From positions 10,803,426-10,867,425 of the forward strand of contig JAJEKV010000036.1 of assembly GCA_021234155.1 (NCBI GenBank): 64,000 nucleotides of DNA. Reading direction: 5' to 3'. Positions 1 through 61,740 of this stretch are shown piece by piece; position 1 is the first letter of the stretch; every line of letters starts with the position of its first letter. This DNA comes from Isoetes taiwanensis. Taxonomy: Eukaryota; Streptophyta; Lycopodiopsida; Isoetales; Isoetaceae. The translations under genes were made by a program, and so were the position numbers. Under the pieces are notes generated by a model, which searched no databases, was not told where the DNA came from, and saw only the letters and a list, made by a program, of their open reading frames with translations.

Positions 1-112
1 GCTGATCCTGGCGATCTTCTTTGGACCGGTGATCTTTGATCTTCTTGGCCCGCGTCGATCCCTCTGCGATCATCTTTGGACCGGTGATCTTTGGTCATCT
101 TTGCACTTCCAT
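1..112 (-). CDS. N-terminal part of the histone H3-like protein, copy A (runs off the window)
   Basis: This matches the start of the H3-like gene seen complete at 4856-5584. The ATG at 110-112 corresponds to the ATG at 5582-5584. What follows is a decayed version of the glutamine/aspartate-rich tail repeat. Compared with copy B, the repeat is altered at many CTG triplets and the frame is broken. The histone-fold part lies beyond the left edge. The call is by homology to copy B only. Confidence 0.55.
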
Positions 113-868
113 AGTCTGCGGTTCTTCCTCCCCCACCACCGCCAAACGTTTGAGAATGCAATAGTGGTCCCAACGCCCGAGGCGAGGAGATAGCTGATTC
201 ATGAGCCACCGGGCACCATGGCCCTAGTCAACCGCCAAAGCACGGCGTGTGTAGACCCGTGGTTTTCAACACGTAATCCGCTCATTACACAAGAACTGGA
301 ATGGCCATGACTCCGTCTTGGGACATGGATGACATCAACTGGGCCACCTGACGTATGACCCGGCGACTTCCTCCAATGTCTCCGCTCGGGGGTGGGGAAC
401 GGCAGTCGGTACTTGTTGGATCGAGTGTGTCCATTTGCTACCACAATCTGATCATCGAATGGAATATTGTGGCGGGCGGTGGCGTCCACGGAAAACTCCT
501 TCCCCAACAACCTTACCGGCTTCGGCAAAGGTGACCCGACTAGGAAGCGGGTCGGGTTTTGAAATATTCGTCCACACTATTATTAATAGTGTGGGCGACA
601 TTTCCAAGGGTTTGCCCGAAGTCTTACAGAAGGACAACCTCCTCTACGCCCATCTGGCTGGCTTGTGATGGGAATAAGCGCCTGCGCCCTCTGGATTGGA
701 ATAGAAGTCTCGGCTGGCCGCTAGTAATGACCTCATCAACGATTCGGGCTTCGTCAAAAGCCTCATTTTGTGGGATTTGAGCTAGCGCCTTCCATGGACT
801 TGAGCGGATTTTAGGAAGGACAAGAAATTCAATTAAGCAATATTGTCTGTCCCGATCCCATAAACCCC
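113..868 (-). other. Leader between H3-like gene and palindrome array, copy A
   Basis: This segment is shared with 5585-6365. On the minus strand it has several overlapping short open frames, for example 199-528, whose apparent peptides differ between copies because of small insertions and deletions. It may be a broken upstream exon of the H3-like gene or a 5' untranslated leader. I see no recognisable domain. A short AT-rich palindromic patch (near 580-595) is present in both copies. Confidence 0.5.
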
Positions 869-869
869 T

Positions 870-1190
870 AGACTGAAAAATGTTCTGGTAGCCACGGTGC
901 GAAATCGGGCGATCCGAAAATGCCGACATCTGTTTTAAGCACCGTAGCCCGCGGTGCGAAAATAAGGCGATCCAGCTGCAGACAACCTGTTTTTCGCACC
1001 GTAGCCCGCGGTCTTGTCATCAGGCGATCAAAAAATGCCGACATCTGTTTTTCGCGCACCGTAGCCCGCGGTCGCGAAATAGGGTAGTCCAAAATTGCCG
1101 ACCCTTTGTTTTCGCGACCGTAGCCACGGTCTTGAAATCGCCCATCAAAAACTGCTGACATCCTGTTTTCGCACTGTAGCCACCATTAAA
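870..1190. repeat. Palindrome array 1, copy A
   Basis: About six units spaced roughly 55-62 bp each carry a variant of the palindrome ACCGTAGCCACGGT, usually extended outward by GC and then AAA/TTT. Several copies read ACCGTAGCCCGCGGT, which disturbs the symmetry. Spacers contain a recurring block like GATCAAAAACTGCCGACATC. The array lies downstream of the acidic-protein gene and upstream of the H3-like gene, as read on the minus strand. Confidence 0.85.
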
Positions 1191-1362
1191 GAATACCTAA
1201 CATATACATCTAACAAGGATTTATTGCTCACATTGAATTCTAACAATTAATGAATATCATAAATGAACATTCATACAAAAGCAATTTCGTCATATGAAAA
1301 CAATTGATACATTATAGAAAAGACAATTTATAGAAAAGACATTATATTAATACATAAGTTTT

Positions 1363-2854
1363 TTAAGTACATTTCCTTTTCTTGGCATCAGGGCCTGTAG
1401 TACCCGAATCAAAATCTTCTAAGTCCTCTTCTTTTACTCCAGCCCCAATTGCATCTAACAGATACAATATGTCAGGGTCCTTCTGTGCACAGGACAAGCG
1501 CAGTGTTTCCTTGTCCGCTCCACCCAAGCCTAGAGCTGCTTTATTTGCAAGGACAGAGTACATTTTGAAGCCCCCGAAGACATACATTGCGATAGCCCTA
1601 TCTACTGCTACCACTCGATCATAGTTTGAGGCTAGGGGCACGTGGTTGCCAGCTAATGACAGAGCCTTAAGCTTGAGGACCTCCTGTACTCCAGATGGAC
1701 TATATTTATTGTGAAACACAATAATTTCCCCCTTGTGAAGGTAGCCCATATAATGTGCAATACTGGCGTCCCTACCTAGGGTGACTCTCTGATGCCTTGC
1801 CCGCGAAGTCATCAATAAATAACTCCTGCATAAAAGAAACATCAGATTCAAGAAGAAATAGAAAATGAAACCAGATAAATACCTCTCTTTTGTCCCGTTC
1901 GACAACAGCTGGGTTTGTTATTTTGAAAGAGGACTTCGACAGCTCACGTTCTATGAATTCAGAAGCAGTGTTTGAAGAGCTAGCAGCTTCAAATTTGACA
2001 TCTTTCACTGCTTCATACCCTGCTTCAGCTTGCTGCATGACAATTTCAAATGCATCCTCTGGAGGTATTGAGGATCCATCATAAGTCACAGCCTCCATCA
2101 TTTGTTTGGGGACATCAGTCTCAAAGTCTATAAGTCCTCCCAGGCCTACAACATGGGCATATATCTGGCCCAATATCTCGTCTTCTCTCAACCCTGTCAC
2201 TTCAGATATGTCCGGCAGCAACAAGTATGGTTTCCCACCTACATGGATGGGATATGCTTCTGATAGCCCCCAAGTAGATAACTTTTTCTCGGAGACCTCC
2301 TCTTCCATAACCTCGATCTCCTCATTTTCCAGTACGAGCTTCTCTTCCTCAGGATCTATCGGCTCCTCTACTGGTGAGGCGGGGCGTTCTGTTTCAGCGA
2401 CCTGTGCACTTGAAGAAGAACTGGCATCTTTGCTTGGCTTAGTGTAAATCATGTATGTGTTGAACATGATATCTAGGCCGAAAAAACTTTCCTTCCCCTC
2501 TTGCCTGCACAGTTCTGCAGGTAATTTCTTCAAGAACCTTCTAATTCGGTCATGATCAGGTTTCGGAAACATCTTAAGAAAAGCTTGGATGCTTAGTGAA
2601 GGCAAACCAGATCCACGGGACATGGTTTCCGCGTCGGGACCAGCTCCAGCCATGAAGCTATGAAGGATGCCGCCATATGCATCAAGAAACTTTGTTACAC
2701 TCTCGCCATAATGTCTACGCCAGGCAAAATTATTATACACGGTGGTTGCATCCACTGGCTCCTCTAGCTCCTCCTCGAACTCTTCGGATGCTTCGGCGAA
2801 AATCCCGTTCTTTCTCCACTATTTTGTCATACCATGCGCTAAAACAGCTCCCAT
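1363..2854 (-). CDS. Unrecognised acidic protein with C-terminal KKRK motif, copy A (frameshifted)
   Basis: I do not recognise the family. The likely start is the ATG at 2852-2854, by comparison with 8344-8346. The product would be about 480 residues. It has an acidic N-terminal patch (EEFEEELEEP), a globular stretch, a Ser/Glu-rich linker (about 100 residues in), a second globular stretch containing LLLPDISEVTGLREDEILGQ, and a C-terminal part ending in DAKKRKCT, which could be a nuclear signal. A 57-bp segment at 1826-1882 has GT-AG ends and may be an intron, although it is also open in frame. Two one-base shifts break the frame: near 2795 and near 1805 (the latter absent from copy B). It lies between two palindrome arrays. 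The breaks may be real decay or consensus errors. Confidence 0.6.
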
Positions 2855-2949
2855 GCCTTATCGACCCGCTATTTGCCATTCTCGTGGAGCAAATACCTCG
2901 ATTTATGACACTTAGAATGTGAGCGCTTTGTAGCGGCTTGATTTGCAAT

Positions 2950-3345
2950 AGAGACTAAGAACGTGGCAACGATGCGAAAATAACACTTCCTTAATTTATG
3001 CTATGCACAAATTAGCGACCGTGGCTACGGTCGCGAAAACAAGACTTCGATAACTTATTCTATTCACAATTTTCGCACCGTGGCTACGGTCTGCGAAAAA
3101 TACCCATTCCATTTTTATTACATTGCATATTTTCGCCCCGCGTGGCTACGGTCGCGAAAACAACACTTCAATATCTTATTGTATGTATAACTTCGCCGCG
3201 TGGCTGCACCGAAGTCGCGAATATACCCCTTTCGTTTTTATGCTATGCACATTTTCGGACCAGGTGGCTACGGTGCGAAAATGGCCCTTCCATATTTTAT
3301 GAGAGCCACAATTTCCAAGACCGTAAGTACGGTTGTGAAAACACA
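2950..3345. repeat. Palindrome array 2, copy A
   Basis: Six units spaced about 59-62 bp carry ACCGTGGCTACGGT, the reverse complement of the array 1 core, usually within CGCACC...GGTGCG. The units sit near 3018, 3077, 3137, 3197, 3259 and 3320. The last unit reads ACCGTAAGTACGGT in this copy and is also the most diverged in copy B. Spacers are AT-rich and differ from those of arrays 1 and 3. The array lies between the BAH gene and the acidic-protein gene. Confidence 0.88.
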
Positions 3346-3593
3346 TCCACAATCGAGTTGTACATAACATGGCTACTTTAAGTCTTATATCCCAATGAAA
3401 GCAAATGTTTGCAATTAATATACAATAGATCTCCGGTTAACAATCACTTATAATATTAGATAGATTCATATCTGACGATATGACTTTGGGTGGCATGCAT
3501 GACCCCAATTTATAGCATTCTTCTCTCAAGGCTTTCCCACCTTCCGCCATCTATCATGAAATGAAAGAAGTTTAAGTCTGTCTCAAACTCCAA

Positions 3594-3957
3594 TTACCGC
3601 CGAACATCGAATAGAGACCACTCGCTCTCCGCTCTCAGACTTTTGAACAGCTGATTATCCTTATGAATGTTCAAGTCTATGACAACGGAATGAGTGCCAT
3701 CATTGTCATCTTGTTCGACAGGAATCCAGACGTACTTTCTTCCTTCACGGACATTTCGCCATCTCCTATACTTAAAAGTGACATACAGAGTTTGCTTCCG
3801 AATGCAATATCTGAACCGAACCGTGTCTCGACTTATCCTGCATTCAGTACATTCAGCTCCATCGTGAAGTCGAGCACTCCAACCTTCAAGAAATACACTA
3901 TCTAAAAAACTATCCGCCGACTGTTGAACTGTAAACATCTTCAAGGTCTTCTTTACA
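3594..3957 (-). pseudogene. 3' part of BAH-domain protein gene, copy A (5'-truncated)
   Basis: The frame of about 116 residues at 3594-3944 matches the C-terminus of the gene at 9071-10134 and ends at the same stop. Similarity stops at about 3957, so the BAH domain, first exon and promoter are missing and unrelated DNA follows. The C-terminal frame is intact here and shows that the break near 9390 in copy B is a one-base shift. With no promoter or start codon it is unlikely to be expressed as such. Confidence 0.75.
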
Positions 3958-4009
3958 TCCCTAAATCAATACTCAGAATGTATATACGCTATATACGTAC
4001 ATTATATAC

Positions 4010-4378
4010 ATGTGTATTTTGTACATTATGCTCGTATGTATAACCAATAATGCTGCTACAGTGCATGTCAATAATTTTGTTCGATATAAGTACGGTTTCA
4101 CTCAATGCAGAAGGCGTCCATTTGCTATGTCTCTGCCTCCTCGTCCCGAAGATATGGACTCCATTACTTGCACTATGACATATAATGATCTTTATAGATG
4201 TTCTCATAGGGGTATCCCCCTTGATCCCTGGCTGGAAGGAGTAGCAGAGGGCCGAAATCGTTCTTCCGGAGGGTTTTATCGTGTTGTTATCCACCTTTGG
4301 AAGGGTTCCAGAGCGTGGCGTCTATGAGATTAATCGCATCACTCAACTACCTTTCAATGATGATCCCGATCGCGAATA
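4010..4378 (+). pseudogene. Unrecognised C-terminal coding fragment
   Basis: A plus-strand frame at 4010-4327 can be continued, after one base shift near 4290, to a stop at 4376-4378. The second part contains GVYEINRITQLPFNDD, which looks like real coding sequence. It sits in the gap between truncated copy A and the third palindrome array, opposite in strand to the unit genes, and has no counterpart in copy B. It may be the last exon of a gene broken by the rearrangement. Function unknown. Confidence 0.35.
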
Positions 4379-4380
4379 AG

Positions 4381-4515
4381 CTTCTTCATTCATGTATGCT
4401 ATGCCTCTTATATGAGTTCTATGTACATGCTATGCCTCTTATATGAGTTATAAGTATGTAACCATAAGTGATACATGTGATCCGTCTATTCATTCAAGAT
4501 TCTCTTAGCAATGTG
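4381..4515. repeat. Short direct repeat
   Basis: The segment ATGCTATGCCTCTTATATGA occurs twice in direct orientation, about 35 bp apart, just before palindrome array 3. No gene is visible. Confidence 0.55.
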
Positions 4516-4519
4516 TGGA

Positions 4520-4722
4520 ATAGTGCGTTTTCGCACCGTAGTCACGCGGTCGTTGGTTATTCCCTCAAAAACTTTGGAACCACTATTTTTTATTGCCGTG
4601 GCCCGCGTTAAATAGACCTTCCCAAAGAATGTGGAATCGTCATTTTCACACCGTGGCGACGGTGCGAAATAGACCTTCCCACAGAATGTGGAATAGTCAT
4701 TTTCGCACCGTGGCCACGGTCA
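4520..4722. repeat. Palindrome array 3
   Basis: Four units carry variants of the same palindrome, for example ACCGTGGCCACGGT at the last unit. The spacers (AATAGACCTTCCCACAGAAT and similar) are distinct from those of arrays 1 and 2. It lies immediately downstream of the H3-like gene as read on the minus strand, so each gene of the unit is followed by such an array. Several palindromes are imperfect. Confidence 0.82.
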
Positions 4723-4855
4723 ACACTAGTAAATAAATGCAAATTACCCCAATAAATAGAATAGCAAATAATTACTGGATAAATATAAAACACTCATCAC
4801 GATAAATACTAAAACACTCATATATTAAGAAACAAAAAGTGTTACAAAAAGGATG

Positions 4856-5584
4856 CTAAGGGAGGTATCCACGGAAGTATCTAGCTAAGGCATAATTGTT
4901 GCCCTCGCCATGATGCTGCGTCCTCTGTGCACCTACAATGGACATTTGTCCTCAAAGAGGCTAATTAGATGAGCCTCTGCTGCCTCTTGCAGTATGTCCA
5001 AGGCCTCTGCCTGGATTCTATTCACCTCCTCCTCCACCATCGGGACGAAGTCTGGTGCTCTGTCCCTCCTCCTCCTCCTTGATTCCTTCCTCCTCTCAAT
5101 AATTTCCTGCATCTCAAACCTGACCATTCTAGCGAAGGCAAGCTTGGGAATCAGAGGCTGGGTGCGTGCCTGCCAGTACCTAATCTCCCTCAAAGCCTGA
5201 GTGCCAGGAGGAGCACCCTTCATCTTCTCAGGGCCACCATATCTAACACTAGGCTCCCCTTCCTTAGGCTTCCGCTTATTACCAAGCTTATCAGTCTCCT
5301 TGCCTGCATCTCTCTCAGCTTGTCTCGCACTAGGAACAAGCCTAGGAGGCTTTGCTTGCTCTCAGTTTCTTCGCACGGATTTCAGCTTTTTTCGGGGGCT
5401 TCCTAGTACCTGTTCCACTCGAACTAGGGTTCCCGGGATCAACATGCTGGTCCACCTGATGATGATCTTGCTGGGGCGGCTGATCCTGCTGATCTTGCTG
5501 GACCAGCTGATGCTGATCTTGCTGGCCCGTCTGATCCTGCTGATCATGCTGGACCAGCTGATGCTGGTCATGCTGCACTTCCAT
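4856..5584 (-). CDS. Divergent histone H3, CENH3-like, with Q/D-rich tail and loop-1 insertion
   Basis: The histone fold is clear. PGTQALREIRYWQ matches the H3 alpha-N helix (PGTVALREIRRYQ), PLIPKLAFARMVR matches alpha-1, AEALDILQEAAEAHL matches alpha-2, LFED leads into loop 2, and ALARYFRG near the end matches the alpha-C segment (QLARRIRG). The AEAL...LQEAAE form and a long loop 1 favour CENH3 over canonical H3. Between alpha-1 and alpha-2 (about 5020-5103) there are some 20 extra residues including RRRRRDR, which is unusual. The N-terminal tail from the ATG at 5582-5584 is about 45 residues of Q/D/H-rich repeat, then a basic segment (TRKPPKKAEIRAKK). Two one-base frame breaks are needed, near 5348 and near 4933. 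It could be a decaying gene, or intact with consensus errors. It would act in chromatin, possibly at centromeres. Confidence 0.75.
5440..5584 (-). repeat. Coding tandem repeat in the H3-like tail
   Basis: Imperfect copies of a roughly 24-48 bp block built on CTGATCCTGCTGATCTTGCT (plus strand) encode repeats such as QHDQQDQ and QQDQHQLV on the minus strand. The period is a multiple of three, so repeat gain or loss would keep the frame. The complementary strand gives a leucine-rich frame that I treat as a shadow. Confidence 0.7.
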
Positions 5585-6365
5585 AGTCTGCAGTTCTTCC
5601 TCCCCCCCACCACTGCCAAACGTTTGGGAATGCAATAGTGGTCCCAACGTCTGAGACGAGGAGATAGCTTCGATTCATGAGCCACCGGGCACCATGGCCC
5701 TAGTCAACCGCCAAAGCACTGGCCGTGTGTAGACCCGGTGGTTTTCAACACGTAATCCAGCTCATTACACAAGAATCGGAATGGCCATGACTCGTGCGGA
5801 CATGGATGACATCAACCTGGGCCACACGACGTATGACCCGACGACTTCCTCCAATGTCTCCGCTCCAGGGGTGGGGAACGGCAGGCTGGCTGTTGGATCG
5901 GGTGAGTGTCCATCGCTACCACAATCTGATCATCCGAACTGGAATATTGTGGCATGACGGTGGCGTCCAATGGAAAACTCCTTCCCCAACAACCTTACCG
6001 GCCGGCAAGGTGACCCGACTAGGAAGCACGGTCGGGTTTTTCGAAATATTCGGCCCACACTATTATTAATAGTGTGGGACGACATTTCCAAGGGTTTGCC
6101 CGGTCTTACGTAAGGACAACCTCCTCTACGCCCATCTGGCGGGCTTGTGATGGGAATAAGCGCCTCGCCCTCTGTGGATCGGAATAGAAGTCTCGGCCGC
6201 GCTAGTAATGACCTCATCAACATTCTCCGGGCGCCGTCAAGCCCTCATTTTGTGGGATTTCGAGCTAGCGCCTTCCATGGACTTGAGCGGATTTTAGGAA
6301 GGACAAGAAATTCAATTAAGCAATATTGTTCCGTCCCATCCCATAAACCCCTAGACTGAAAAAAA
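5585..6365 (-). other. Leader between palindrome array and H3-like gene, copy B
   Basis: This is the counterpart of 113-868, lying upstream of the H3-like gene on the minus strand. Short minus-strand frames such as 5930-6223 differ from those of copy A. I cannot identify an exon with confidence. It may hold the promoter and 5' leader of the H3-like gene. Confidence 0.45.
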
Positions 6366-6680
6366 ATGTTCGGTAGCCACGGTGCGAAATCGGGCGATCC
6401 GAAACCGCCGACATCTGTTTTAAGCACCGTAGCCCGCGGTGCGAAATAGGGCAGTCCAGAATCGCTACCAGAGCGCTGCTTTTTTTCTACCGTAGCCACG
6501 GTCGAAATCGGCGATCAAAAACTGCCGACATCTGTTTTTTTGACCGTAGCCCGCGGTGCAAAAAAAAGGGTAGTCCAAAATTGCCGATCGCTTTGTTTTA
6601 CCGCATCAGAGCCCGCGGTCTAAATCGCCAAATCAAAAAATGGCGACATCCCGTTTTTTTACGCCTTTGTAGCCACCATT
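6366..6680. repeat. Palindrome array 1, copy B
   Basis: About six units at roughly 58-60 bp spacing carry ACCGTAGCCACGGT variants near 6371, 6426, 6489, 6543, 6604 and 6665. The last two are strongly decayed. The array is homologous to 870-1190. Confidence 0.85.
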
Positions 6681-6855
6681 AAAGAATACCTAACATATAC
6701 ATCTAACAAGGATTTATTGCTCACATTGAATTCTAACAATTAATGAATATCATAAATGAACATTCATACAAAAGCAATTTCGTCATATGAAAACAATTGA
6801 TACATTATAGAAAAGACAATTTATAGAAAAGACATTATATTAATACATAAGTTTT

Positions 6856-8346
6856 TTAAGTACATTTCCTTTTCTTGGCATCAGGGCCTGTAGTACCCGA
6901 ATCAAAATCTTCTAAGTCCTCTTCTTTTACTCCAGCCCCAATTGCATCTAACAGGATACAATATGTCGTGGTCCTTCATTACGCACGGACAAGCTGCAGA
7001 TGTTTCCTTGTCCGCTCCACCCAAGCCTAGAGCTGCTTTATTTGCAAGGGCCAGAGTACATTTTGAAGCCCCCGAAGACATACATTATGATAGCCCTATC
7101 TCTTTGCTACCACTTTCGATCATAGTTTGAGGCTAGGGGCACGTGGTTGCCGACTAATGACATGAGCCTTAAGCTTGAGGACCTCCCCGTACTCGGATGG
7201 ACTATATTTATTGTGAAACACAATAATTTCCCCCTTGTGAAGGTAGCCCATATAATGTGCAATACTGGCGTCCCTACCTAGGGTGACTCTCTGATGCCTT
7301 GCACAGAAGTCATCAATAAATAACTCCTGCATAAAAGAAACATCGATTCAAGAAGAAATAGAAAATGAAACCGGATAAATACCTCTCTTTTGTCCCGCTC
7401 GACAACAAATTGGGTTTGTTATTTTGAAAGAGGACTTGACGACTCACGTTCTATGAATTCGAAGCGGTGTTTGAAGAGCTAGCAGACTTCAAATTTGACA
7501 TCTTTCACTGCTTCATACCCTGCTTCAGCTTGCTGCATGACAATTTCAAATGCATCCTCCGGAGGTATTGAGGATCCATCATAAGTCACAAAGCTCCATC
7601 ATTTGTTTGGGGACATCAGTCTCAAAGTCTATAAGTCCTCCCGGGCCTACAACATGGGCATATATCTGGCCCAATATCTCGTCTTCTCTCAACCCTGTCA
7701 CTTCAGATATGTCCGGCAGCAACAAGTATGGTTTCCCACCTACATGGATGGGATATGCTTCTGATAGCCCCCAAGTAGATAACTTTTTCTCGGAGACCTC
7801 CTCTTCCATAACCTCGATCTCCTCATTTTCCAAAGACTGAGCTTCTCTTCCTCGGGATCTATCGGCTCCTCTCGGTGAGGCGGGGCGTTCTGTTTCAGCG
7901 ACCTGTGCACTTGAAGAAGAACTGGCATCTTTGCTTGGCTTAGTGTAAATCATGTATGTGTTGAACATGATATCTAGGCCGAAAAAACTTTCCTTCCCCT
8001 CTTGCCCTTGCGATTATTTGTAATTTCTTCAAGAACCTTCTAATTCGGTCATGATCGGGTTTGGAAACATCTTAAGAAAAGCTTGGATGCTTAGTGAAGG
8101 CAAACCCGATCCACGGGACATGGTTTCACGTCGGGACCAGCTCCACCATGAAGCTATGAAGGATGCCGCCATATGCATCGATAAACCTGTTACACTCTGC
8201 CATAATGTCCACGCCAGCAAAATTATTATACACGTTGGTTGCATCCATTTGGCTCCTCTAGCTCCTCCTCGAACTCTTGGGATGCTTCGACGAAAATCCC
8301 GTTCTTTCTCCACTATTTTGTCATACCATGCGCTAACAGCTCCCAT
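6856..8346 (-). CDS. Unrecognised acidic protein with C-terminal KKRK motif, copy B (frameshifted)
   Basis: This is the second copy of the gene at 1363-2854. The ATG at 8344-8346 begins MGAVSAWYDKIVEKERDF, and the open frame then breaks in the acidic patch. Further breaks lie near 8225, 8000, 7880, 7590, 7470 and 7150. The possible intron is at 7327-7382 and is one base shorter than in copy A. At the splice junction copy B keeps the frame (ELFIDDFCARHQRVTLGRD) where copy A is shifted. The two copies are therefore broken in different places. No family is recognised; the acidic segments and terminal basic cluster suggest a nuclear protein. Confidence 0.6.
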
Positions 8347-8449
8347 GCCTTATCGACCCGCTATTTGCCATTCTCGTGCGGCGCCCTCGATTTATGACAC
8401 TTAGAATGTGAGCTTTTGTAGCGACTTGATTTGCAATAGAGACTAAGAA

Positions 8450-8815
8450 CGTGGCAACGATGCTTGAAAATAACACTTCCTTAATTTATGCTATGCACAA
8501 ATTCGCACCGTGGCTACGGTGCGAAAACAAGACTTCGATAACTTATTCTATTCACAATTTCGCACCGTGGCTACGGTGCGAAAATACCCATTCCATTTTT
8601 TATTACGTGCATATTTTTCGCACCGGTAGCTCACGGTCGCGAAAAACAACACTTCAATATCTTATTGTATGTATAACCGCACCGCATACGGTGCGGAATA
8701 TACCCCTTTCGCTTTTTTATGCTATGCACATTTTCAAGATCGTGGCTACGGTGCGAAAATGGCCCCTTCCATATTTTATGAGAGCCACAATTTCAAGACC
8801 GTAAGTGCGGTGTGA
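8450..8815. repeat. Palindrome array 2, copy B
   Basis: Six units lie at 57-60 bp spacing, with cores near 8507, 8564, 8622, 8681, 8739 and 8798. The first two are perfect ACCGTGGCTACGGT inside CGCACC...GGTGCG. The array lies downstream of the BAH gene and upstream of the acidic-protein gene. Confidence 0.9.
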
Positions 8816-9070
8816 AAACACATCCACAATCAGAGTTGTACATAACATGGCTACTTTAAGTCTTATATCCCAATGAAAGCAAATGTTTGCAATTAATATA
8901 CAATATAGATCTCCAGTTAACAATCACTTATAATATTAGATAGATTCATATACAGATATGACTTTGGGTGGCATGCATGACCCCAATTTATAGCATTCTT
9001 CTCTGCGCTTTCCCACCTTCTGGCCATCTATCATGAAATGGAAGAAGTTTAAGTCTGTCTCAAACTCCAA

Positions 9071-10134
9071 TTACCGCCGAACATCGAATAGAGACCACTC
9101 GCTCTCCGCTCTCAGACTTTTGAACAGCTGATTATCCTTATGAATGTTCAAGTCTATGACAACGGAATGAGTGCCATCATTGTCATCTTGTTCGACAGGA
9201 ATCGGACGATACTTTCTTCCTTCACGGACATTTCGCCATCTCCTATACTTAAAAGTGACATCTGAGTTTGCTTCCTAATGCAATATCTGAACCGAACCGT
9301 GTCTCGACTTATCCCGCATTGATTCACATTCATTCCATCCATCGTGAAGTCGAGCACTCCAACCTTCAAGAAATACACTATCTAAAAACTATCCGCCCGA
9401 TTTGTTGAACTGTAAACATCTTCAAGGTCTTCTTTACATTGTCGGCGCTCTTGAATATGGCAATGAACAGATCAATTCCTAAATTTATCTTCACATGCCC
9501 GTAGACTCCTCCCTTCTCCTTCAATGCCGTGAACATTTCCAATAAGATAGAAGTGGCATCCGAGAGGCCCGCGAGATAAATCGAGCAAAGTTTGGGCAAT
9601 GGAAGCTCAGTTAGCTTGGATCTTCGTGGAGAGTATTCATACCTCCAGAACCATATACCCCTTTCTCTGAGCTGTACTGGTGTGCTACCTTCAAACAACA
9701 AGCAGCCCATATCTTGGTGAAAGCAATGGAAAACACTGCTTATCGAGTGTGAAGAGACAGTGTTCTCCACATCAGATATACACAAACCTGAGAGAATAGG
9801 AATGAACTGGATAAGTAACTGAACTAATTTGAATATGAATTGCATAGAATTACATACTCACAATTTGCTTCTAACCGTGGGAAAGTTCGTCGCTTGCTTA
9901 TTTTTTCTTTTGCCATATCTGTTGGAGTGTATACATGCCTTACTTGTACAAATATCTCTTTGCCTGATCGAAATCCGACCACCAAAGCCTTCCAATGTGC
10001 AGAAACATCATTTCTCCTGCATCTTTTGACTCGCCATTCACCTCGTGATTGCGGGGTTGGAGTGTAACAAAGCTCCCGGTCGACACCACGAAGCTTTCAA
10101 ACTCATTTTCGACTGTGATAGAGCTTATAGCCAT
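9071..10134 (-). CDS. BAH-domain chromatin protein with unrecognised C-terminus (frameshifted)
   Basis: The start is the ATG at 10132-10134, just below a promoter-like segment. The first roughly 110 residues read as a BAH domain: SFVVSTGSFVTLQP at the first strand, then IGRLWWSDF, then EIFVQVRHVYTPTDM (the typical V-R-x-x-Y-x-P-x-D block), then ANCLCISDVENTVSSHSI (the typical LSDxxDTVPxxxI block). One base shift at a CAGG near 9955 joins the first two parts. An intron at 9788-9861 (GTGAGT...CTCAG) has matching phase on both sides. The C-terminal 230 residues are unrecognised; the frame breaks near 9390 but is intact in copy A. BAH domains bind nucleosomes or histone tails, as in ORC1 and silencing proteins. 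Its neighbours encode an H3-like histone and an acidic protein, consistent with a joint chromatin role. Confidence 0.65.
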
Positions 10135-10149
10135 CTAGTCAAAGAATTC

Positions 10150-10520
10150 AAATCAGAATGTGGAGCGGAATCGAAATACTAGGAAAGGCTACGCGATTTT
10201 ACCTTGATCGAAGTTTTTCTGTGGTCGAAACTCCCTTTAGCGCAGGTCGAAGCAGTTCCCGAGTGAACCGAAGCTCCCTTGACGCGAGCAATCGATCTTC
10301 GCGCAAACTCTGTTGTGGAAAACACCTGAGCGGGAATTGAGGGCGGGAACTAACGGTTATAATTGCCACGTGTGTAATCTGACACCCGAAGCTAGAGGCA
10401 CGGATATTACCGAAGCTACGTGCAGTCGACACCTGGAAAGGCGAAACCAAGGCTCGGTAAAAAAGTTCTGTACAAGCTCGGCTCCCCATTGGCCGCGAGC
10501 TCTTTGACGTGGCATCGAGT
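10150..10520 (-). promoter_or_regulatory. Promoter region of the BAH gene with cell-cycle-type sites
   Basis: This GC-richer segment lies directly upstream of the BAH gene start. It contains two E2F-like sites, GAGCGGGAATT (10329-10337 region) and GGGCGGGAAC (10341-10350). They are followed at once by CTAACGGTTA (10350-10359), which fits the plant MSA element recognised by three-repeat MYB factors at G2/M. A G-box core CCACGTGT lies at 10367-10374, a CCAAT-type box CCCATTGG near 10485 and TGACGTGG near 10506. Together these suggest S or G2/M expression, as for histone and mitotic genes. Activity is inferred. Confidence 0.55.
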
Positions 10521-10548
10521 AAGGGCCCTTATTTGATCTCAAAAAAAC

Positions 10549-11739
10549 TCTAATGCATCATAACATAACATGTGTAACAACAACAAATAACAGCAACAAA
10601 AGGGGAATCCTACCCAAGGCTCAGACTCATGGGGGCTCGACTGACGGCTTGGGTCTCCAGAAGTCAATGCAGACCGAATTCATGGCAAATGGATTGGGCT
10701 GGCATAAGAACATGGCAATTGGGTAGTCCACTCCATCCGCTCCTCTCGTGCACACTTTGCAGAGTAGGTTAAAAAGTCTTGGGACCGGACCGTAGCCTGC
10801 CGGGTGCATAGCCAAAAGGGCTACTGCTAGGTTGCATCTCTCCAGTCCCGATGAGGCAGGAGGAGAGTCACCTCCTTTCCAGAGGCATGCATACCCATCA
10901 CAGGCAGCTAGAGGGCCACTACCCGTATTCGGCTTGAACCCATTGAAGGTGACGCATCACCCCAAGAGGTGTCGAGCTCATGCCTTGCCCACACGCAGTG
11001 GCAAACCATTAAGCCTAGCCCGCTTAGATCCCTGGTAGGCTTTACACACCAGAGGGATCAATCAGTAATGGGACAAGTCCCCCTTATTCCACCGGTCGCC
11101 CCGCCACCCACAACCAGGCGGGCTCTTGTACACACGGGCCGCATTAATTGGGAATTAATGAGGTTATCTATGATCATCTGCTACTGAAGGCTTCAGGGTC
11201 TCTACCCCCCTTCCCACGTACACAAGAGAGCATAGAATGGAACATCATCATCATCAAAGAATTGAAATACTGAATAAGATCTAGTCTATCTTACCTAAAC
11301 ATACAAGGTTAGGTTACCTAATCCTTGGCTTGCTCCAACTCCTCGAATCGCGTCCATGCCTTCGTTCTTGCTGAACACGGCTGCTCCTGAGGAATCTAAT
11401 GTGCAAAGGTGGCTCAGCGACGCCTGGCAATGTGGAATGGCAGCTTGCCTTGGCGGAATGGCTCAGGGAAGCCAAAATGCGAAAATGGAAAAAAGTTTAG
11501 GGTTTTCCCTTTTATTCCTTATACATGAACTTTTAGGGTTAGGTTAGAAGGGACCAAATGGGGTATTGCGACTTGGCAAGGGGTTTAATTGCATATGTTT
11601 AATATATATGTGCAACATACGAGGTTGCCCCCTAGGCGCAACTCTTTACGGCTCTCAAGTACTTGTCGTGGTGACATGTACGTGTGACGTGGCAGTATAA
11701 TATACGTATTCGGACCGTATGTTATGCTGGAACGTCACA
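10549..11739 (-). repeat. 3' LTR of the Gypsy element (distally truncated)
   Basis: This matches 19744-19979 plus 21579-22635 in direct orientation. On the minus strand it begins TGTGACGTTCC at 11739. The roughly 210 bp at the other end, present at 19534-19744, are missing. It also serves as the empty-site reference for the Copia insertion, because it reads straight through GGGACCGGACCGTAG. Confidence 0.85.
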
Positions 11740-19533: not shown

Positions 19534-19979
19534 TGTGGCGTCCCCTACTTCTAGAAGTCGGAGTTCATCTCCCTGGCAGCCAAACTGGCAGGGGCTGACG
19601 CCAATCCCAGGAGCTGGGCCAGTGAGGAAGAGTGGATGGGTCGTTTGCCCCGTCTTCCTTCGGGACTGTCCTAGCTGCAGAAGCGTAAATAAACATGAGC
19701 ACATGACATCAATACATCAACAAAGTCACCTCAAAGGGTGAACACATCATAACATAACATGTGTAACAACAACATAAATAACAGCAACAAAATGGGAATC
19801 CTATCCAAGGCTCAGACTGATGGGGGATCGACTGACGGTTTGGGTCTCCAGAAGTCAATGCAGACCGAATTCATGGCAAATGGATTGGGCTGGCATAAGA
19901 ACATGGCTATTGGGTAGTCCACTCCATCCGCCCCTCCCGTGCACACTTTGCAGAGTAGGTTGAAAAGTCTTGGGACCGG

Positions 19980-20291
19980 TGTCAAGGTTGCACCAAGAAA
20001 GGGAAAGAAGGGGATGCACATCAATATCCGAGAGCGAAGCTCCCAAAACAAAGGCAAAATGGAATTGTGTTAAACGTAAGTATGAATACAAGATATAAAA
20101 AGGGGCAGTAGATAATAACTGCTCCCGTTACCAACCACACCTAATTATGCCGTAACTAATTAAGGCAAGTGGATGTGCTAGTGTAGGTGCTGATGAAGTG
20201 CTGATTCAGCACATAGTCAGCACCTCTGTGCGGCGTGCTGTCAGTGCTGTCAAGCAGCAAGATGGTGATCTCGATATCATATATCTCGACA
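19980..20291 (-). repeat. Copia LTR, full copy
   Basis: On the minus strand it begins TGTCGAGATATATG at 20291 and ends CAACCTTGACA at 19980, giving 312 bp with TG...CA ends. The first roughly 31 bp of the same LTR also form the right end of the insertion (about 21548-21578). Confidence 0.75.
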
Positions 20292-20645
20292 CTCCTCCTT
20301 GATGATGGCCTTACATATGGCAGCAATAGTGATGCTTTTTCATTGCCTTACATATCGCAAAATCATCACTATTGCTGCCATATGTAAGGCCATCATATAT
20401 GATATCGAGATCACCATCTTGCTGCTTGACAGCACTGACAGCACGCCGCACAGAGGTGCTGACTATGTGCTGAATCAGCACTTCATCAGCACCTACACTA
20501 GCACATCCACTTGCCTTAATTAGTTACGGCATAATTAGGTGTGGTTGGTAACGGGAGCAGTTATTATCTACTGCCCCTTTTTATATCTTGTATTCATACT
20601 TACGTTTAACACAATTCCATTCTGCCTTTGTTTTGGGAGCTTGCG
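20036..20645. repeat. Large inverted repeat (hairpin) made of two opposed LTR copies
   Basis: The segment from about 20036 to 20330 is repeated as its reverse complement from about 20362 to 20645, starting with AAGCTCCCAAAACAAAGGC and its complement. The arms are near identical over about 250 bp with a short central loop. A transcript would form a long double-stranded stem. Confidence 0.85.
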
Positions 20646-35040: not shown

Positions 35041-35950
35041 TGTTACAGCACACAAATTTTTCCTTAAGAACAATCTTTGCCGCGTATTAACGCCGACTAG
35101 CTTCCACCCTCACCTTGGATCCCGGATCCCCCTCGCTAATCACACTGGTTGCTGCTATGCAAAGTTCCCAGAGCAATCCAGATTCTTTCAATGAATCCTC
35201 TCGGGTCAGCACCAACTGGTTCTTCACCCAAATCAATCCTTGGCAGTAGCAATCTATCTTAGGATCACCAGCACGGCCTTAGGCTGCAAATCCGACCCTA
35301 TGGGTCAATCCTTGAATCAAACAGAGATCAATCACAGCAGAAACGGCTTCCAATTTCATTAACCCGGTTTCTGTACCCCAGCCTATTTCTTCCTCTAGGC
35401 TTTATAATCTGCTAACTTGAGTTAACTAGCAGTCCTGTCAGACCAAAACCGGCCAGATTAGGCCTTGATTCGATCTGATTCCATGCTTTGGAGCTCAATT
35501 AGAGATCTGGCATCCAGATTTCATCCACGAACTAGTTTCCTTCTGTTCTAAGACCTATCCAATATTTCGATGCCATGTGTCCCTTTAATATTTATTTAAA
35601 ACCATAGCTAACATTGCATTCATATATTTTAATAACATTGGCCCCTAGTAAGTTATATTAACATTAATATAACTTTGCCAACCATGCACCCATATGAATC
35701 TCTTGCCCGCAACCCCGCTAGCTCTTTTCGCACTAATACTTAGTGATATTAGTGCCTCGCCTAGCAACCCATTACCCGTTGCTTGGCCATTATTACCATT
35801 TACCCCGCATCCCGTCACCATAGACTGGTTACAATCAACACAGCCCATTAAATCACAACTGCCCGGCAATCGCGACCAACAGTACCCCCGTGCTCATGGA
35901 CGTCCGTCAAGGGCCCGATTCCAGCTATGCCCTTGGGAGCACCTGTAACA
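35041..35950 (-). repeat. 3' LTR of the 6-kb Gypsy element
   Basis: A 910-bp direct repeat of 40152-41061. By eye roughly one base in 20-25 differs, plus small indels such as the AGCAATCTATCTT stretch near 35250. The insertion is therefore not very recent. Confidence 0.92.
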
Positions 35951-36460: not shown

Positions 36461-37390
36461 TCACAACGCTTGCTTGCATTGCCGCAGGATTGCATCCATG
36501 TCATGGAGCATGTGTACTGCAACTTCGGTTCTAAGGTACTTATGCATACCAGAATAAGCTCTTAAGTTTTGGCCCATCATAGCCACAAAGGGAGTCATTC
36601 GAATTCCCGTGTGATGACTATTATTATAAGCGAACTCTAGATAGGGTAGATAATCTTCCCACCTAGACTGCTTCTCTTGGACAAAACTTCGCAACATGTT
36701 CTCTAAGATCATGTTAATGCGCTCAGTTTGCCCGTCCGCCTGTGGATGGTTTCCGCTACTCATGTACAATCGGATCCTCGATCCTTTCATGAGATCTCTC
36801 TAAAAGTGACCCGTGAACTTAGTGTCCCGATCACTTACAATGGACAAGGAAAGTCCGAAGGTTGGAAATATGTGCTGCATATAGGCAACTGTTACGTCAT
36901 GCCCCGTAGCCTCCCCTTTTAATGCTATAAACTTAGTATACTTGGTCAGCCGATCCACTACGACCAAAATTTGAGTATGTTGCCTAGCAGTTCTAGGTAA
37001 TGCGACTATAAAGTCCATACTCACGCTTTCCCAGCGTTCATTTGATATAGGGAGAGGCTGTAACAATCCCGGAGTTTTCCCATGATCTGCCTTCACCGCT
37101 TGACACACCAAGCAGTGACTTACCAAGTCCTTGACTTGATCTTGCAGCTCTGGCCAGTAGTAGAACCTTTTAACCAACTCATACGTCTTCCATTCACCTC
37201 CATGCCCAGCTTGTGGAGTGTCATGGTGCTCACGTAGAATTGACTCCCTAAGGTCCCCACTCGAAGGAACATAAATCCTTCCCTTATAAAAATGCAAACC
37301 CTCTTGCTCAGTCCATAGCTCCCCGAGCTTGACCATCGCCGAATCTTGCTGATCCTCAGGATATGCCCTTGATCCTTTGTATAAGATCAC
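36461..37390 (-). pseudogene. Gypsy integrase, zinc-binding and catalytic core
   Basis: Two frames (36800-37390 and 36461-36790) cover the domain. The H-H-C-C zinc motif is seen as REHHDTPQAGHGG...SHCLVCQ. Catalytic Asp residues occur in SMDFIVALP and SDRDTKFTGHF, and the Glu in HPQADGQTERIN. A frame break near 36795 separates the second Asp from the Glu. The domain joins cDNA to host DNA; here it is inactive. Confidence 0.9.
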
Positions 37391-38012
37391 TTGCCAAAGT
37401 CGTCAAGATATTTATATGCTTAACCCTTGATAATGCATCGGCAACTGGATTATTTTTGCCCGGCGTATGCTCAAAGGAAAAATGGAACTCATGGAGGAAG
37501 TCTAGCCACGTAGCCTGTCTCGGGCTAATTTCGGCTTGACTTTGCAAGAACCTCAATAGTTTATGGTCAGTATAGACGATAAACTTGCGCGGCTCTTGGC
37601 TCGTCCCACTACGCAAGTAGTGCCTCCACGTCTTTAACGCATGCACAATGGCTAGCAACTCTTGCTCATAAGTTGCATAATTCCTTTCCGCATGACTTAG
37701 TTTCCGACTTTCATAAGCCACTACGTGATCTTGCTGCATCAATACTGCACCTACTGCTTGCTCGCAAGCGTCAGTATAGACCTCGAATGCCTGATTCAAA
37801 TTCGGCACTTTTAGCACTAGCAAATCCTTAATGCGCTGAAATGCCTCTTGTTGCTCTCTCCCCCACACAAAATCGTAATCTTTTTTCAAAAGATCAGTAA
37901 GAGGAGCAACAATTTTAGAAAATTTAGGTACAAATTTACGGTAGTACGTGGCTAACCCTAGAAAACTGCATAACTCTGAAACATTTTCCGGCGGGAGCCA
38001 TTGCTGTACCAC
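37356..38012 (-). pseudogene. Gypsy RT connection and RNase H
   Basis: The open frame has the connection block FLGLATYYRKFVPKFSKI and the RNase H acidic residues in FEVYTDACEQAVGAVL, NYATYEQELLAIVHAL, IVYTDHKLLRFL and VADALSRV. It is followed by the start of integrase in an overlapping frame. Coding sequence is well preserved over 218 residues. Confidence 0.9.
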
Positions 38013-38801
38013 TTTACCTTGGTGGGATCTGGGGACACACCGTCTACAGACAGGATAAGTCCTAAATAGGCCACTCGCTGCTTAAAGAATTCAAATTTGG
38101 AAATCTTGGCATAGAGCTTGTGGTCCCGCAAAATTCGAAGAATGTGTTCCAAATGAGCGAAATGTTCTTCAACAGTTTGCGAATAGATGAGAATATCATC
38201 CAAATGCTCAGAGAACACTTGATTCATTAGCCGCATAAATGTTGCGGGCGCATTCGTAAGCCCAAACGGCATAAGTTCTGAATGCGGTTTTAGGTTCGTC
38301 GGCTTCTCGAATCCTAATCTGATGATATCCACTGCGGAGGTCAATCTTGGTAAACCATTTGGCTCCGCCAAGATGATCCAGAATATCATCAACCCGGGGT
38401 AAAGGATATCTATCATTTACAGTTGCCTTGTTAAGTGCCCGGTAATCTATGCATATCCGCATAGTACCGTCCTTTTTCTTAACAAGCAAAACGGGACTCA
38501 CAAAAGGTGATTTACTTGGTCGTACAAAACCTTTGCTTAACAATTCTCTCACTTGCTTTTTAACCTCTTCAAGTTCTAGAGGACTTAATCGGTAGGGAGC
38601 ACGTGCCATGGGCTTGACCCCTGGTTCAAGTACAATTTCATGCTCAACTCCCCGAGAAGGTGGCAACTCTTCTGGGAACACGTCTTTAAATCTTTCCACA
38701 AGATTTTGTAATTCTTGATTTACATCTGAACCTAGTTCAATGTTTACATCCATAGAATTACAAGACCTAACAATGTCATCATCAGGCATGATATCCATCA
38801 A
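37958..38801 (-). pseudogene. Gypsy reverse transcriptase (frameshifted, with small deletion)
   Basis: Frames 38208-38801 and 37958-38416 give [20 protein letters not shown], the [20 protein letters not shown] block, [13 protein letters not shown] and [12 protein letters not shown]. The catalytic pair is in EHLDDILIYS. The stretch between VFSE and LDDILIYS is shorter than normal, so a few residues before the catalytic Asp pair are lost. One frame break lies near 38280. Confidence 0.9.
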
Positions 38802-39518
38802 GAAAAAAAAACTATCTTCTTACATTTAATTCCCAATTGCATTCTTTTCTAAACACAGACTTGTAAGAGTCCTAAGAATATAACCCAAGTGCCCTTAAAT
38901 TGCCCAAGGCAATTCCATGGCTTAAACCTTTAAAGGTTTATATGACTTAGAATTATTCCCTACATTTACTTAGAAAAGTCGAAGAAGCAACTTTCCCATT
39001 AAATAGCATTATCTATTTCTTCAAAAGAATTTGGTTCACTAAGTCGACCCCGACGCTTAGCCAAAATTCCTATAGTTTTAATCCTTTTTCATACGACCTT
39101 GACTAGGTGCGGACTAGGATTAGTTATAAGATGTCAAGATATTCCAATATCTTTCCCATCTTATAAGTTTTGTATATTATCAAAATATACTTACCCAAAT
39201 TCTAATTGCACCTATTGCATTATAACCTTAAAATTGAGATATATATATAAAAAAAAACATACCTTACTATAGTTCCTTGAACCAATTCGGATACTTACAT
39301 CCAACAGTTTTCTAACTGTCTATTACTTGCGCCTACAAGTAATAAAAGAAATTTATCTAAGTAGCAAAGTCAATTTTGCTATTAGTTTTTCCTTCTCGAG
39401 AACTTCAGTATAGTTCCCAATCAAGCCCCTGAGGTACCTTGATTAAATGTTAGAACAATTTCTTACATCATGTCCTCTTTTCCCACAACCCAAACAAGGT
39501 TTATCTGTATTAACCTTG
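38802..39518 (-). other. Decayed gag-protease region of the Gypsy element
   Basis: No readable frame. AT-rich DNA with many stops. The protease motif (DSGA/DTGA) is not found, so this part is either deleted or beyond recognition. Confidence 0.5.
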
Positions 39519-40151: not shown

Positions 40152-41061
40152 TGTTACAGCACAAACTTTTTTCCTTGAGAACAATATTTGCCGCGTATTA
40201 ACGCCGACTAGCTTCCACCCTCACCTTGGATCCCGGATCCCCCTCGCTAATCACGCTGGTTGCTGCTATGCAAAGTTCCCACAGCAATCCGGATTCTTTC
40301 AATGAATCCTCCTGGGTCAGCACCAACCGGTTCTTCACCCAAATCAATCCTTGGCATTAGCAGGATCACCAGCACAACCTTAGGCTGCAAATCCGACCCT
40401 ATGGGTCAATCCTTGAATCAAACAGAGATCAATCACAGCAGAATCGGCTTCCAATTTCATTAACCCAGTTTCTGTACCTCAGCCTATTTCTTCCTCTAAG
40501 CTTTATAATCTGCTAACTTGAGTTAACTAGCAGTCCTGTCAGACCAAAACCGGCCAGATTAGCCTTGATTCGATCTGATTCCATGCTCTGGAGCTCAACT
40601 TAGAGATCTGGCATCCGGATTTCATCCAGGAACTCGTTTTCTTCTGTTCTATATCAGACTTAAGACTCATCCAATATTTCGATGCCATGTGTCCCTTTAA
40701 TGTTTATTTAAAACCGTAGCTAATATTGCATTCATATATTTTAATAATATTGGCCCCTAGTAAGTTATATTAACATTAATATAACTTTGCCAACTATGCA
40801 CCCATATGAATCTCTTGCCCGCAACCCCGCTAGCTCTTTCCGCACTAATACTTAGTGATATTAGTGCCCCGCCTAGCAACCCATTACCCGTTGCTTGGCC
40901 ATTATTACCATTTACCCCACTTCCCGTCACCGTAGACTGGTTACAGTCAACACGGCCCATTAAATCACAACTGCCCGGCAATCGCGACCAACAGTACCCC
41001 GTGCTCATGGACGTCCGTCAAGGGCCCGATTCCGGCGATGCCCTTAGGAGCACCTGTAACA
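40152..41061 (-). repeat. 5' LTR of the 6-kb Gypsy element
   Basis: A 910-bp LTR matching 35041-35950, with TGTTACAG and CTGTAACA at its ends. Confidence 0.92.
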
Positions 41062-55200: not shown

Positions 55201-55255
55201 TGAAGAGATAGCTACTTGAATATTAACTGTTTGGTAAAGTCTTTGACATAAAACT
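49201..55255. repeat. Gene-free stretch with simple and diverged repeats
   Basis: No gene is supported over 6 kb. It contains a TAA-type simple repeat (51228-51258), a TGCATGCA-rich patch (52512-52562), and four related blocks containing CCTAACTTGATAATACTT or its variants (near 52800, 52870, 53166, and a weaker one near 50800). These suggest an old dispersed or tandem repeat. Confidence 0.5.
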
Positions 55256-55261
55256 AACAAA

Positions 55262-58833: not shown

Positions 58834-61313
<2,480 letters not shown>

Positions 61314-61740
61314 ATCTGTATCTATATATGTGCCAGTTTTGGTCTTCTTTTTTGAGCCGTCCAAAACCTCAGCTTGGAAAAGCCTTTAATTTCTTACGGT
61401 CCACAGACTTTTAGGGTTCGATAAGCCGCGAAAATGATTTCCCGTGTTCTAACTTGAAGCTTTTCTTGAACATTATGTTCTATGTTTTATACGAATTTGG
61501 ATACTGCAAATCATGCACGATTTAGGTACATTGTAATTTGATTAATATAGTTCACCGGGACATCCGATATTGGATCATATTGGATCGATACAGAGAAGAT
61601 TATCATATTGGATCGATACAGAGAAGATTAGTGTGGCCCTTGCATAAGGATGACACGCATAAATCTAGAATTGAATCCATGAAGTTTGAAGCTTGCATTC
61701 GTTATTTGAATATAATTAGTGTTTTTAAGCGATTGCATAC
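61314..61740. promoter_or_regulatory. IMPDH upstream region
   Basis: An in-frame stop lies just upstream of the IMPDH start at about 61387, so no further N-terminal extension is possible without another exon. An 18-bp direct duplication around TTGGATCGATACAGAGAAGATTA lies near 61580-61630. No decisive promoter motif. Confidence 0.45.

Follow-up and report, generated by a model that had tools for sequence, protein, structure and literature searches.

A histone H3-like protein and an acidic partner encoded in a DNA transposon and a retrotransposon of Isoetes taiwanensis

The 64,000-nucleotide stretch of the Isoetes taiwanensis genome analysed here (assembly GCA_021234155.1, contig JAJEKV010000036.1, positions 10,803,426 to 10,867,425 of the forward strand; hereafter the window) begins with genes for a putative BAH protein, an acidic protein and a histone H3-like protein, separated by arrays of a palindrome. 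The question raised by this locus is to what kind of system such genes belong, and what that system would do with a histone of its own. The original prediction, made from the window alone, had considered a selfish element, a centromere-drive system and a host gene cluster under fast evolution. The genes are found to be part of a DNA transposon, and an H3 gene with an acidic partner recurs, as judged from sequence comparison, in an unrelated Ty3-type long terminal repeat (LTR) retrotransposon of the same genome. The reading favoured here, with a probability of roughly 0.4, is that the H3 and acidic proteins would build the element's own chromatin and thereby protect it from host silencing.

A dispersed DNA transposon with a histone gene

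Sequence common to the genomic copies starts abruptly at window 10555, from where the element runs leftwards beyond the start of the window; the whole window element measures 18,472 bp (C1041:10795509-10813980). The first 32 bases of the far end at C1041:10795509 (CATTAGAGTTTTTTTGAGGTCAAATAAGGGCC) return inverted, with one mismatch at the near end. These terminal inverted repeats (TIRs) of 32 bp start with CATTAG, and the intact ends that were read carry CATTAGAG, one end CATTATAG. When 41 five-prime and 40 three-prime ends were paired (the best 40 of 488 and the best 40 of 335 end candidates were scored), seven complete elements were obtained, the six others measuring 12,583 to 14,656 bp. An inverted copy of the 3' end on the 5' side was also observed at L019:1453-2426 (element orientation), apparently in a rearranged or nested copy.

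Empty sites were located for three elements. That of the window element is a sister copy of the surrounding repeat, 9 kb away (window 19595-19896), to which the joined flanks align without gain or loss of a base at the junction. A second element has 11 matches to its join of 160 bases, of which two cover 159 bases or the full length, at 95-99%, and three others cross the junction along 118 bases; for a third, all 160 join bases are covered by 35 of the 40 listed matches (912 candidates). No target-site duplication is present at these three empty sites, and none of the seven elements shares three or more flank bases, the left and right flanks agreeing at two bases in one element, at one in three and at none in three. 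We conclude that insertion occurs without a target-site duplication, as the empty sites of three elements display. Past mobility of the transposon is evident. The repeat around it (window 10610-10763 and 19809-19954) matches the inside of the LTR of the retrotransposon L044, inverted, at 79-81% over about 150 bp; the transposon may have landed in an LTR related to that one.

The copies are numerous in the genome (1,658,258,908 bases in 1,110 contigs), with at least 150 matches to the H3-like protein (best 150 of 2,195 candidates), at least 122 to the acidic protein (116 of 2,432 candidates scored), at least 150 to the BAH-like exon (best 150 of 1,624 candidates) and at least 149 to the transposase (148 of 2,321 candidates scored). 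Among the best 66 H3 matches, the acidic gene lies upstream on the same strand in at least 36 and downstream in one, and the BAH-like gene upstream in at least 28 and downstream in none; both are upstream in 20 and neither in 22. These lower bounds were drawn from the best 66 of the 150 H3 rows, 99 of the 122 acidic rows and the first 96 of the 150 BAH-like rows, the acidic rows of a 47% subfamily and some pieces standing outside the count. The gene order predicted from the window is thereby borne out elsewhere in the genome. The family is a dispersed TIR DNA transposon of about 13 kb when complete, with a transposase gene on the opposite strand and five forward genes. The TIRs, the many dispersed copies, the paralogous empty sites and the linked transposase gene confirm the selfish element that had been surmised; of the copy number and flanking duplications for which a search had been proposed, the former was verified as many dispersed copies and the latter were absent.

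The predicted 5.5-kb direct repeat is present (window 1-3958 against 5479-9439, 91.2% identity over 4,047 alignment columns, period about 5.48 kb). It is not the element itself; alignment against the copy L014 identifies it as a duplication of one inner segment of the 18,472-bp transposon (L014, about 2834-8218), with its junction at window 3958/3959. Only in this insertion, one of the seven elements with both ends found, was the segment seen in tandem. The core of the first H3 copy lies just left of the window start (locus L009). Several frames are broken in copy B, where the third helix of H3 is out of frame, whereas it is in frame in copy A; since the published assembly is Nanopore-based, from noisy long reads (PMC8566536, excerpt), sequencing noise is a possible source of the broken frames. 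The duplication in one of seven complete elements and the noisy reads are also what speaks for a host chromatin gene cluster or an assembly artefact, a reading that is scarcely credible and is refuted for the family by the TIRs, the empty sites and the dispersed copies in conserved order; the host cluster of the original prediction falls with it.

The complete gene set was read from the C930 element, in which the order from the 5' end is the BAH-like gene (two exons), the acidic gene, the H3 fusion and two paralogous genes. The latter are about 41% identical and lie between H3 and the transposase (L028/L029, C930, reverse-strand open reading frames (ORFs) 5942-5343 and 4620-3970). In the window, the three predicted genes are found in the expected order on the minus strand, with palindrome arrays of about 57-bp period between them; Tandem Repeats Finder (TRF) places these arrays at 888-1181, 2962-3184, 4610-4720, 6373-6563 and 8450-8779. 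The features of the element in the window are as follows.

1-10555, minus strand: part of the DNA transposon in the window, 10,555 bp; both ends located, flanks matching the paralogous empty site
10524-10555, minus strand: 5' TIR (CATTAGAGTTTTTTTGAG...GGGCC), 32 bp, one mismatch here to its inverted copy at the far end; seven copies compared
8930-10134 (approximate), minus strand: BAH-like gene, two exons, frame broken in this copy; from ORF pieces, relatives and a weak BAH profile match, the BAH identity being tentative
8450-8800, no strand: palindrome array after the BAH-like gene (TRF and palindrome search, as for all arrays below)
6859-8350, minus strand: acidic gene copy B, frames broken; from ORFs, a duplicate of copy A in the 91% repeat
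6373-6680, no strand: palindrome array after acidic gene copy B
5690-6330 (approximate), minus strand: region of the N-terminal extension of the H3-like protein, broken here, open in C930 (199-aa ORF) and others
4936-5674, minus strand: H3-like protein with Gln-rich linker, basic tail and histone core (core 4936-5361), matching PF00125
4500-4722, no strand: palindrome array after the H3-like gene
3500-3965, minus strand: truncated second copy of the BAH-like gene at the junction 3958/3959, from the repeat alignment, ORFs and comparison with L014
2962-3340, no strand: palindrome array copy A, between the BAH-like and acidic genes
1366-2818, minus strand: acidic gene copy A (ending ...KKRKCT), with a first open piece of 348 aa (isoelectric point (pI) 4.6) and a second part in another frame
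888-1181, no strand: palindrome array after acidic gene copy A

For the N-terminal extension, no window ORF of at least 70 aa is listed among the related ORFs of other elements.

The palindrome, ACCGTRGCYACGGT, occurs within two mismatches at 20 places in the 13.3-kb C930 stretch, all of them inside the element and mostly 57 bp apart; they fall into five groups, and each forward gene is followed by one of these. The window has 13, of which 12 are in the element. An 18-base search gave five matches, all in the element, against 0.01 expected. With 20 of 20 palindromes in C930 and 12 of 13 in the window lying inside the element, the proposal that the element marks its own copies is a possible one. 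An isolated match to the palindrome core was noted outside the transposon at window 53584.

Further along the window, a 606-bp stretch (20037-20642) matches its own reverse complement at 91%. Direct repeats of 93% at 35041-35950 and 40152-41061 surround Ty3-type pol pieces (36800-38819, by eye) and probably delimit an ordinary LTR retrotransposon. A 535-aa open frame at 55227-56834 has by eye the look of a reverse transcriptase of the long interspersed nuclear element type, and an open frame at 60186-61385 that of an IMP dehydrogenase, likely a host gene.

Proteins of the transposon and its class

The H3-like protein of the window matches the Pfam histone family PF00125 (E 8.4e-11, 42.6 bits against a cutoff of 26.4) and the H3 chains of nucleosomes from E 3.8e-10, in agreement with the predicted histone. 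In the transposon it consists of an acidic N-terminal part of about 200 aa (pI 4.05), a Gln-rich linker, a basic tail and the histone core. The third helix is in frame in copy A and some others (nine of 17 rows by one pattern; four of the 21 loci gave no H3 row). Structure prediction from single sequences was poor for both window proteins modelled, the H3-like protein (mean predicted local distance difference test score (pLDDT) 67.7, predicted template modelling score 0.27, three helices) and the acidic protein (mean pLDDT 35.3). When the H3 model was compared with known folds, no match reached E<=0.001; of three weak rows, the second was a nucleosome histone.

A longer loop 1 is a trait of CENH3, and in the alignment loop 1 of the transposon H3 core is about 23 residues longer than that of canonical H3, the CENH3 used having two extra residues there. 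This is the observation that would favour centromere drive, in which the element would build centromeres with the H3-like protein as its CENH3. The core is, against this, about equally far from canonical H3 (50/106 identities) and from one Arabidopsis CENH3 (47/108); the H3 tree, with that one CENH3, leaves it unplaced under a long-branch warning; copies are on many contigs, and the retrotransposon H3 described below is canonical-like (88/106). Centromere drive, as raised by the original prediction, is unsupported and very improbable.

The BAH identity could not be sustained beyond a resemblance. No match to PF01426 was obtained for the exon pieces, for two exon-joined proteins or for any of the four alignment members, and no BAH chain came up when the BAH-like alignment was searched as a profile against the PDB. 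When the profile was compared with four BAH domains of solved structures, a score of 19.7 was recorded, 100 shuffles of the columns reaching at most 17.3; the HHalign probability is 3%. The best PDB row is a designed pentatricopeptide protein (E 2.2e-4), which aligns behind the BAH-like region, and no stretch passes alone. In relatives the second exon is a single open frame, at most about 311 aa long, and BAH residues fit by eye; the name "BAH-like" is used here as a tentative label for the predicted sequence.

The transposase is encoded by a long ORF on the opposite strand in the 3' part, of 797 aa in C930, 902 aa in L033 and 644-684 aa in others. Four relatives are 52-66% identical to the first, with D423, D514, C535/C538, H607/H612, H771, H776 and E796 (L033 numbering) as invariant candidates, giving the candidate catalytic layout D...D...CxxC...HxxxxH...E. 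The proteins tried had no match to a transposase family in Pfam, including none to a MULE, hAT or Harbinger-type DDE domain. Between subfamilies the ratio of nonsynonymous to synonymous differences (pN/pS) is 0.24, at saturation (nine of ten pairs). RAG1 has zinc-binding histidines and a catalytic Glu at a spacing as in this transposase. In a search of its profile against PDB sequences, RAG1 accounts for six of seven rows at E<1 (E 0.4-0.67), the best row being an unrelated GGA3 chain (0.15); the RAG1 alignment covers the stretch with HxxxxH and the last Glu, and no whole-domain match is significant. The faint RAG1 resemblance of the sequence may serve as a lead and carries no class membership.

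Transib and RAG1 elements leave a 5-bp target-site duplication. The present element resembles RAG1/Transib in its candidate D...D...CxxC...HxxxxH...E layout and in the alignment of the region of the last Glu to RAG1; it differs in a TIR that starts CATTAG, in having no 5-bp duplication and in lacking a significant whole-domain match. Insertion without target-site duplication is known from PHIS (Spy group) elements, with which the present one agrees in that respect and not in a Harbinger-type DDE domain, for which no Pfam match was found.

Two further classes were considered. CACTA/En-Spm elements have TIRs starting CACTA or CACTG and 2-3 bp target-site duplications; the CATTAGAG ends and the missing duplication agree with neither. 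MULE/VANDAL elements (MULE, Mutator-like element) have a MULE transposase domain and target-site duplications of about 9 bp; neither a MULE Pfam match nor a duplication was found here.

The H3 and acidic pair in a second element class

A search with canonical H3 (best 150 of 9,101 candidates scored) first listed 15 host genes that are near-identical to it (98-99%), followed by 135 other places of 71-86% identity, of which many lie in open frames of 420-500 aa. Three of these places, read at length (L044, L045 and L046), are of one family, larger than that of the transposon. L044 with L047 forms a complete LTR retrotransposon (L044:1454 to L047, C1018:19363454-19374739), with LTRs of about 1.6 kb at 95.3% identity and TGGTATCAGAG at the edge of the left LTR, a primer site of the tRNA-Met type. 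Its gag matches Ty3_capsid (E 8.1e-15) and Retrotrans_gag (E 1.9e-13). The part from the left LTR to gag encodes an H3 fusion of 477 aa (L044:3603-5033), an acidic protein and a third ORF; L045 and L046 have the same three genes, LTRs having been sought in L044/L047 only. Two of the retrotransposon H3 fusions match PF00125 at E 2.6e-41 and 4.5e-42, and the core has 88 of 106 identities to canonical H3 (about 83%).

The retrotransposon acidic protein has at least 150 matches (best 150 of 6,181 candidates), 87-100% identical and most of them in open frames. Comparison of the 135 places of H3 with the 150 of the acidic gene gives 36 pairs no more than 10 kb apart, against 0.24 expected, and in all 36 the two genes are on the same strand with the acidic gene downstream of H3.

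A hidden Markov model (HMM) of the transposon acidic protein was run against 53 retrotransposon ORFs and 1,060 shuffled decoys. The top four ranks went to acidic ORFs, with all three retrotransposons represented (E 1.7e-5, 0.0073, 0.083 and 0.21, against E 2.7 for the best decoy), and because all four are the right ORFs, we regard the acidic proteins of the two classes as homologous. HHalign of the two families gave a probability of 36% (P 3.7e-4); BLASTP between them was not significant (best E 0.56), and with the L044 acidic protein as tBLASTn query, the window yielded nothing at 1e-3. No homologue of the transposon H3 N-domain, the two paralogous genes or the BAH-like protein was detectable among the retrotransposon ORFs, decoys scoring as well or better. 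Taken at the level of sequence, these comparisons indicate that two unrelated element classes share an H3 plus acidic-partner module. The occurrence of the same pair of gene types in class I and class II elements suggests the pair, rather than the transposition machinery, as the unit of function.

When the ratio of nonsynonymous to synonymous substitution rates (dN/dS) was calculated for the retrotransposon H3 core, a median of 0.019 and a maximum of 0.163 were recorded (21 copies, 135 unsaturated pairs, median dS 0.50), with a pN/pS of 0.09 over 75 saturated pairs; the H3 tail has a dN/dS of 0.177 (115 pairs). The locus L048 repeats L045 and stands outside the counts. Within the transposon family, dN/dS is 0.33 for H3 (118 pairs) and 0.36 for the BAH-like gene (63 pairs). 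Between subfamilies, mean pN/pS at saturation is 0.30 for the BAH-like (six pairs) and 0.39 for the acidic protein (nine). The substitution pattern indicates that the histone of these elements is under selection.

Selection bears on the explanation that a host H3 was picked up by chance and amplified without a role for the element, as in fungal hAT transposons (PMC6710886, excerpt). Besides that fungal precedent of a hAT with H3, the persistence of a subfamily in which no H3 gene was seen agrees with such a passenger, as does the weak constraint on several transposon genes within the family. It is a rather unlikely explanation in view of the low ratios of the retrotransposon H3 core, the extra N-terminal part on H3 and the partner protein common to two unrelated element classes. 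The subfamily in question (L022-L024) is divergent: the BAH-like, acidic and paralogous genes are present, the acidic protein being 47-49% identical, and in the 10 kb that were read, covered for H3 by the genome-wide search alone, no H3 gene came to light. What follows the acidic gene there aligns with the sequence after H3 in L011. Similarity to the H3-bearing family reaches 96% in downstream parts, and these elements look mosaic.

A possible role in element chromatin

In 21 retrotransposon H3 tails, the canonical K4 context is found in none, the K27 context in none and KKPHR (K36) in one. On the reading that the pair builds the element's own chromatin, the acidic protein would be the loading partner of the variant H3, both working as a pair that assembles nucleosomes on element DNA. 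Such nucleosomes, without the canonical K4 and K27 contexts and mostly without K36, might resist host silencing and keep the element expressed. The palindrome arrays of the DNA transposon could be addresses that recruit the complex, perhaps via the BAH-like or the acidic protein, as VANC does with its motif arrays.

Several observations weigh against this reading. An altered K9-like context is kept in 20 of the 21 tails, the exception, L066, being a truncated tail, and the loss of silencing marks would therefore be incomplete. H3 would be dispensable for the L022-L024 elements, since no H3 gene was seen there. The four retrotransposon pieces examined contain no palindromes, and the addressing step would thus not be general. 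Three of the four acidic HMM matches are weak alone, only the first (E 1.7e-5) being strong. The acidic gene precedes H3 in the transposon and follows it in the retrotransposon, and the reversed order argues that no intact block was transferred. Within-family constraint on the transposon is weak for the acidic protein (dN/dS 0.61, 26 pairs), the H3 N-domain (0.68, 10 pairs) and the fourth gene (0.64, 24 pairs), and the copies used for dN/dS are partly top matches to H3 queries, which lowers dN, some having been lost for coverage.

Packaging or targeting was also weighed, in which the histone fusion and the acidic protein act in transposition itself, coating element DNA, as histones do in some viruses, or tethering the integration complex to nucleosomes via the N-terminal domain. 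The fusion of the H3 core to a further N-terminal part in both families, the position of the module upstream of gag in the retrotransposon and its presence in two classes, as expected of a general step, all accord with a function of this kind. No motif shared by the seven transposon insertion sites was seen by eye, none of the retrotransposon ORFs is detectably homologous to the N-terminal part of the transposon H3, and coating leaves the palindrome arrays unexplained; a role in transposition itself is judged the less likely of the two. Own chromatin built by the H3 and acidic pair remains the favoured reading. The most extended form of it is doubtful, namely that two unrelated lycophyte element classes share a self-chromatinisation module (a tail-replaced H3 and a dedicated acidic partner, forming nucleosomes unreadable to silencing), with the DNA transposon also founding a new transposase superfamily of RAG1-like layout and insertion without target-site duplication.

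The closest known systems differ in the factor that they encode. VANDAL MULE elements with VANC anti-silencing proteins (PMC5735166, excerpt) resemble the present transposon as plant DNA transposons with accessory genes, repeats of short motifs in their own noncoding regions and a proposed sequence-specific escape from silencing; the Isoetes element differs in having no MULE Pfam domain and no target-site duplication, in encoding a histone and in a motif that is a palindrome mostly at 57-bp spacing, its anti-silencing being a proposal drawn from sequence. Fungal hAT transposons also carry H3 sequence, with hundreds of copies and 8-bp target-site duplications; according to the part of PMC6710886 available, copies in P. 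fijiensis are inactivated by repeat-induced point mutation and Pyrenophora tritici-repentis has many potentially active H3 copies. The Isoetes element, in contrast, has no hAT match or duplication, and its H3 is fused, with a shared partner protein and a second element class. In orchids, Ty3/Gypsy elements carry an AlkB-type N6-methyladenosine demethylase (PMC9289625, excerpt) and are similar as plant Ty3-type LTR elements whose conserved accessory gene may work against control by the host; in Isoetes the accessory genes instead encode an H3 fusion and an acidic protein, with homologues in a DNA transposon. Fungal DNA transposons encoding a TET/JBP dioxygenase (PMC12730594, excerpt) likewise supply a factor acting on an epigenetic mark, theirs being an enzyme in another host kingdom and the present one a histone. 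No plant element encoding a histone was found among the papers listed in searches of open-access PMC, subscription papers and bioRxiv lying mostly outside it, and a 2026 review of how plant elements capture genes (PMC13317346) does not contain the word 'histone' in its available text.

Repeats with BLASTx matches to plant proteins were excluded from the repeat library published for Isoetes (PMC8566536, excerpt), a filter that may hide H3-carrying families from annotation. The transposon-encoded anti-silencing factors named above (VANC, AlkB, TET/JBP) target DNA or RNA methylation, and a nucleosome component made by the element would be a different route of escape. If this is true, these families would offer histone biology many natural H3 variants under selection.

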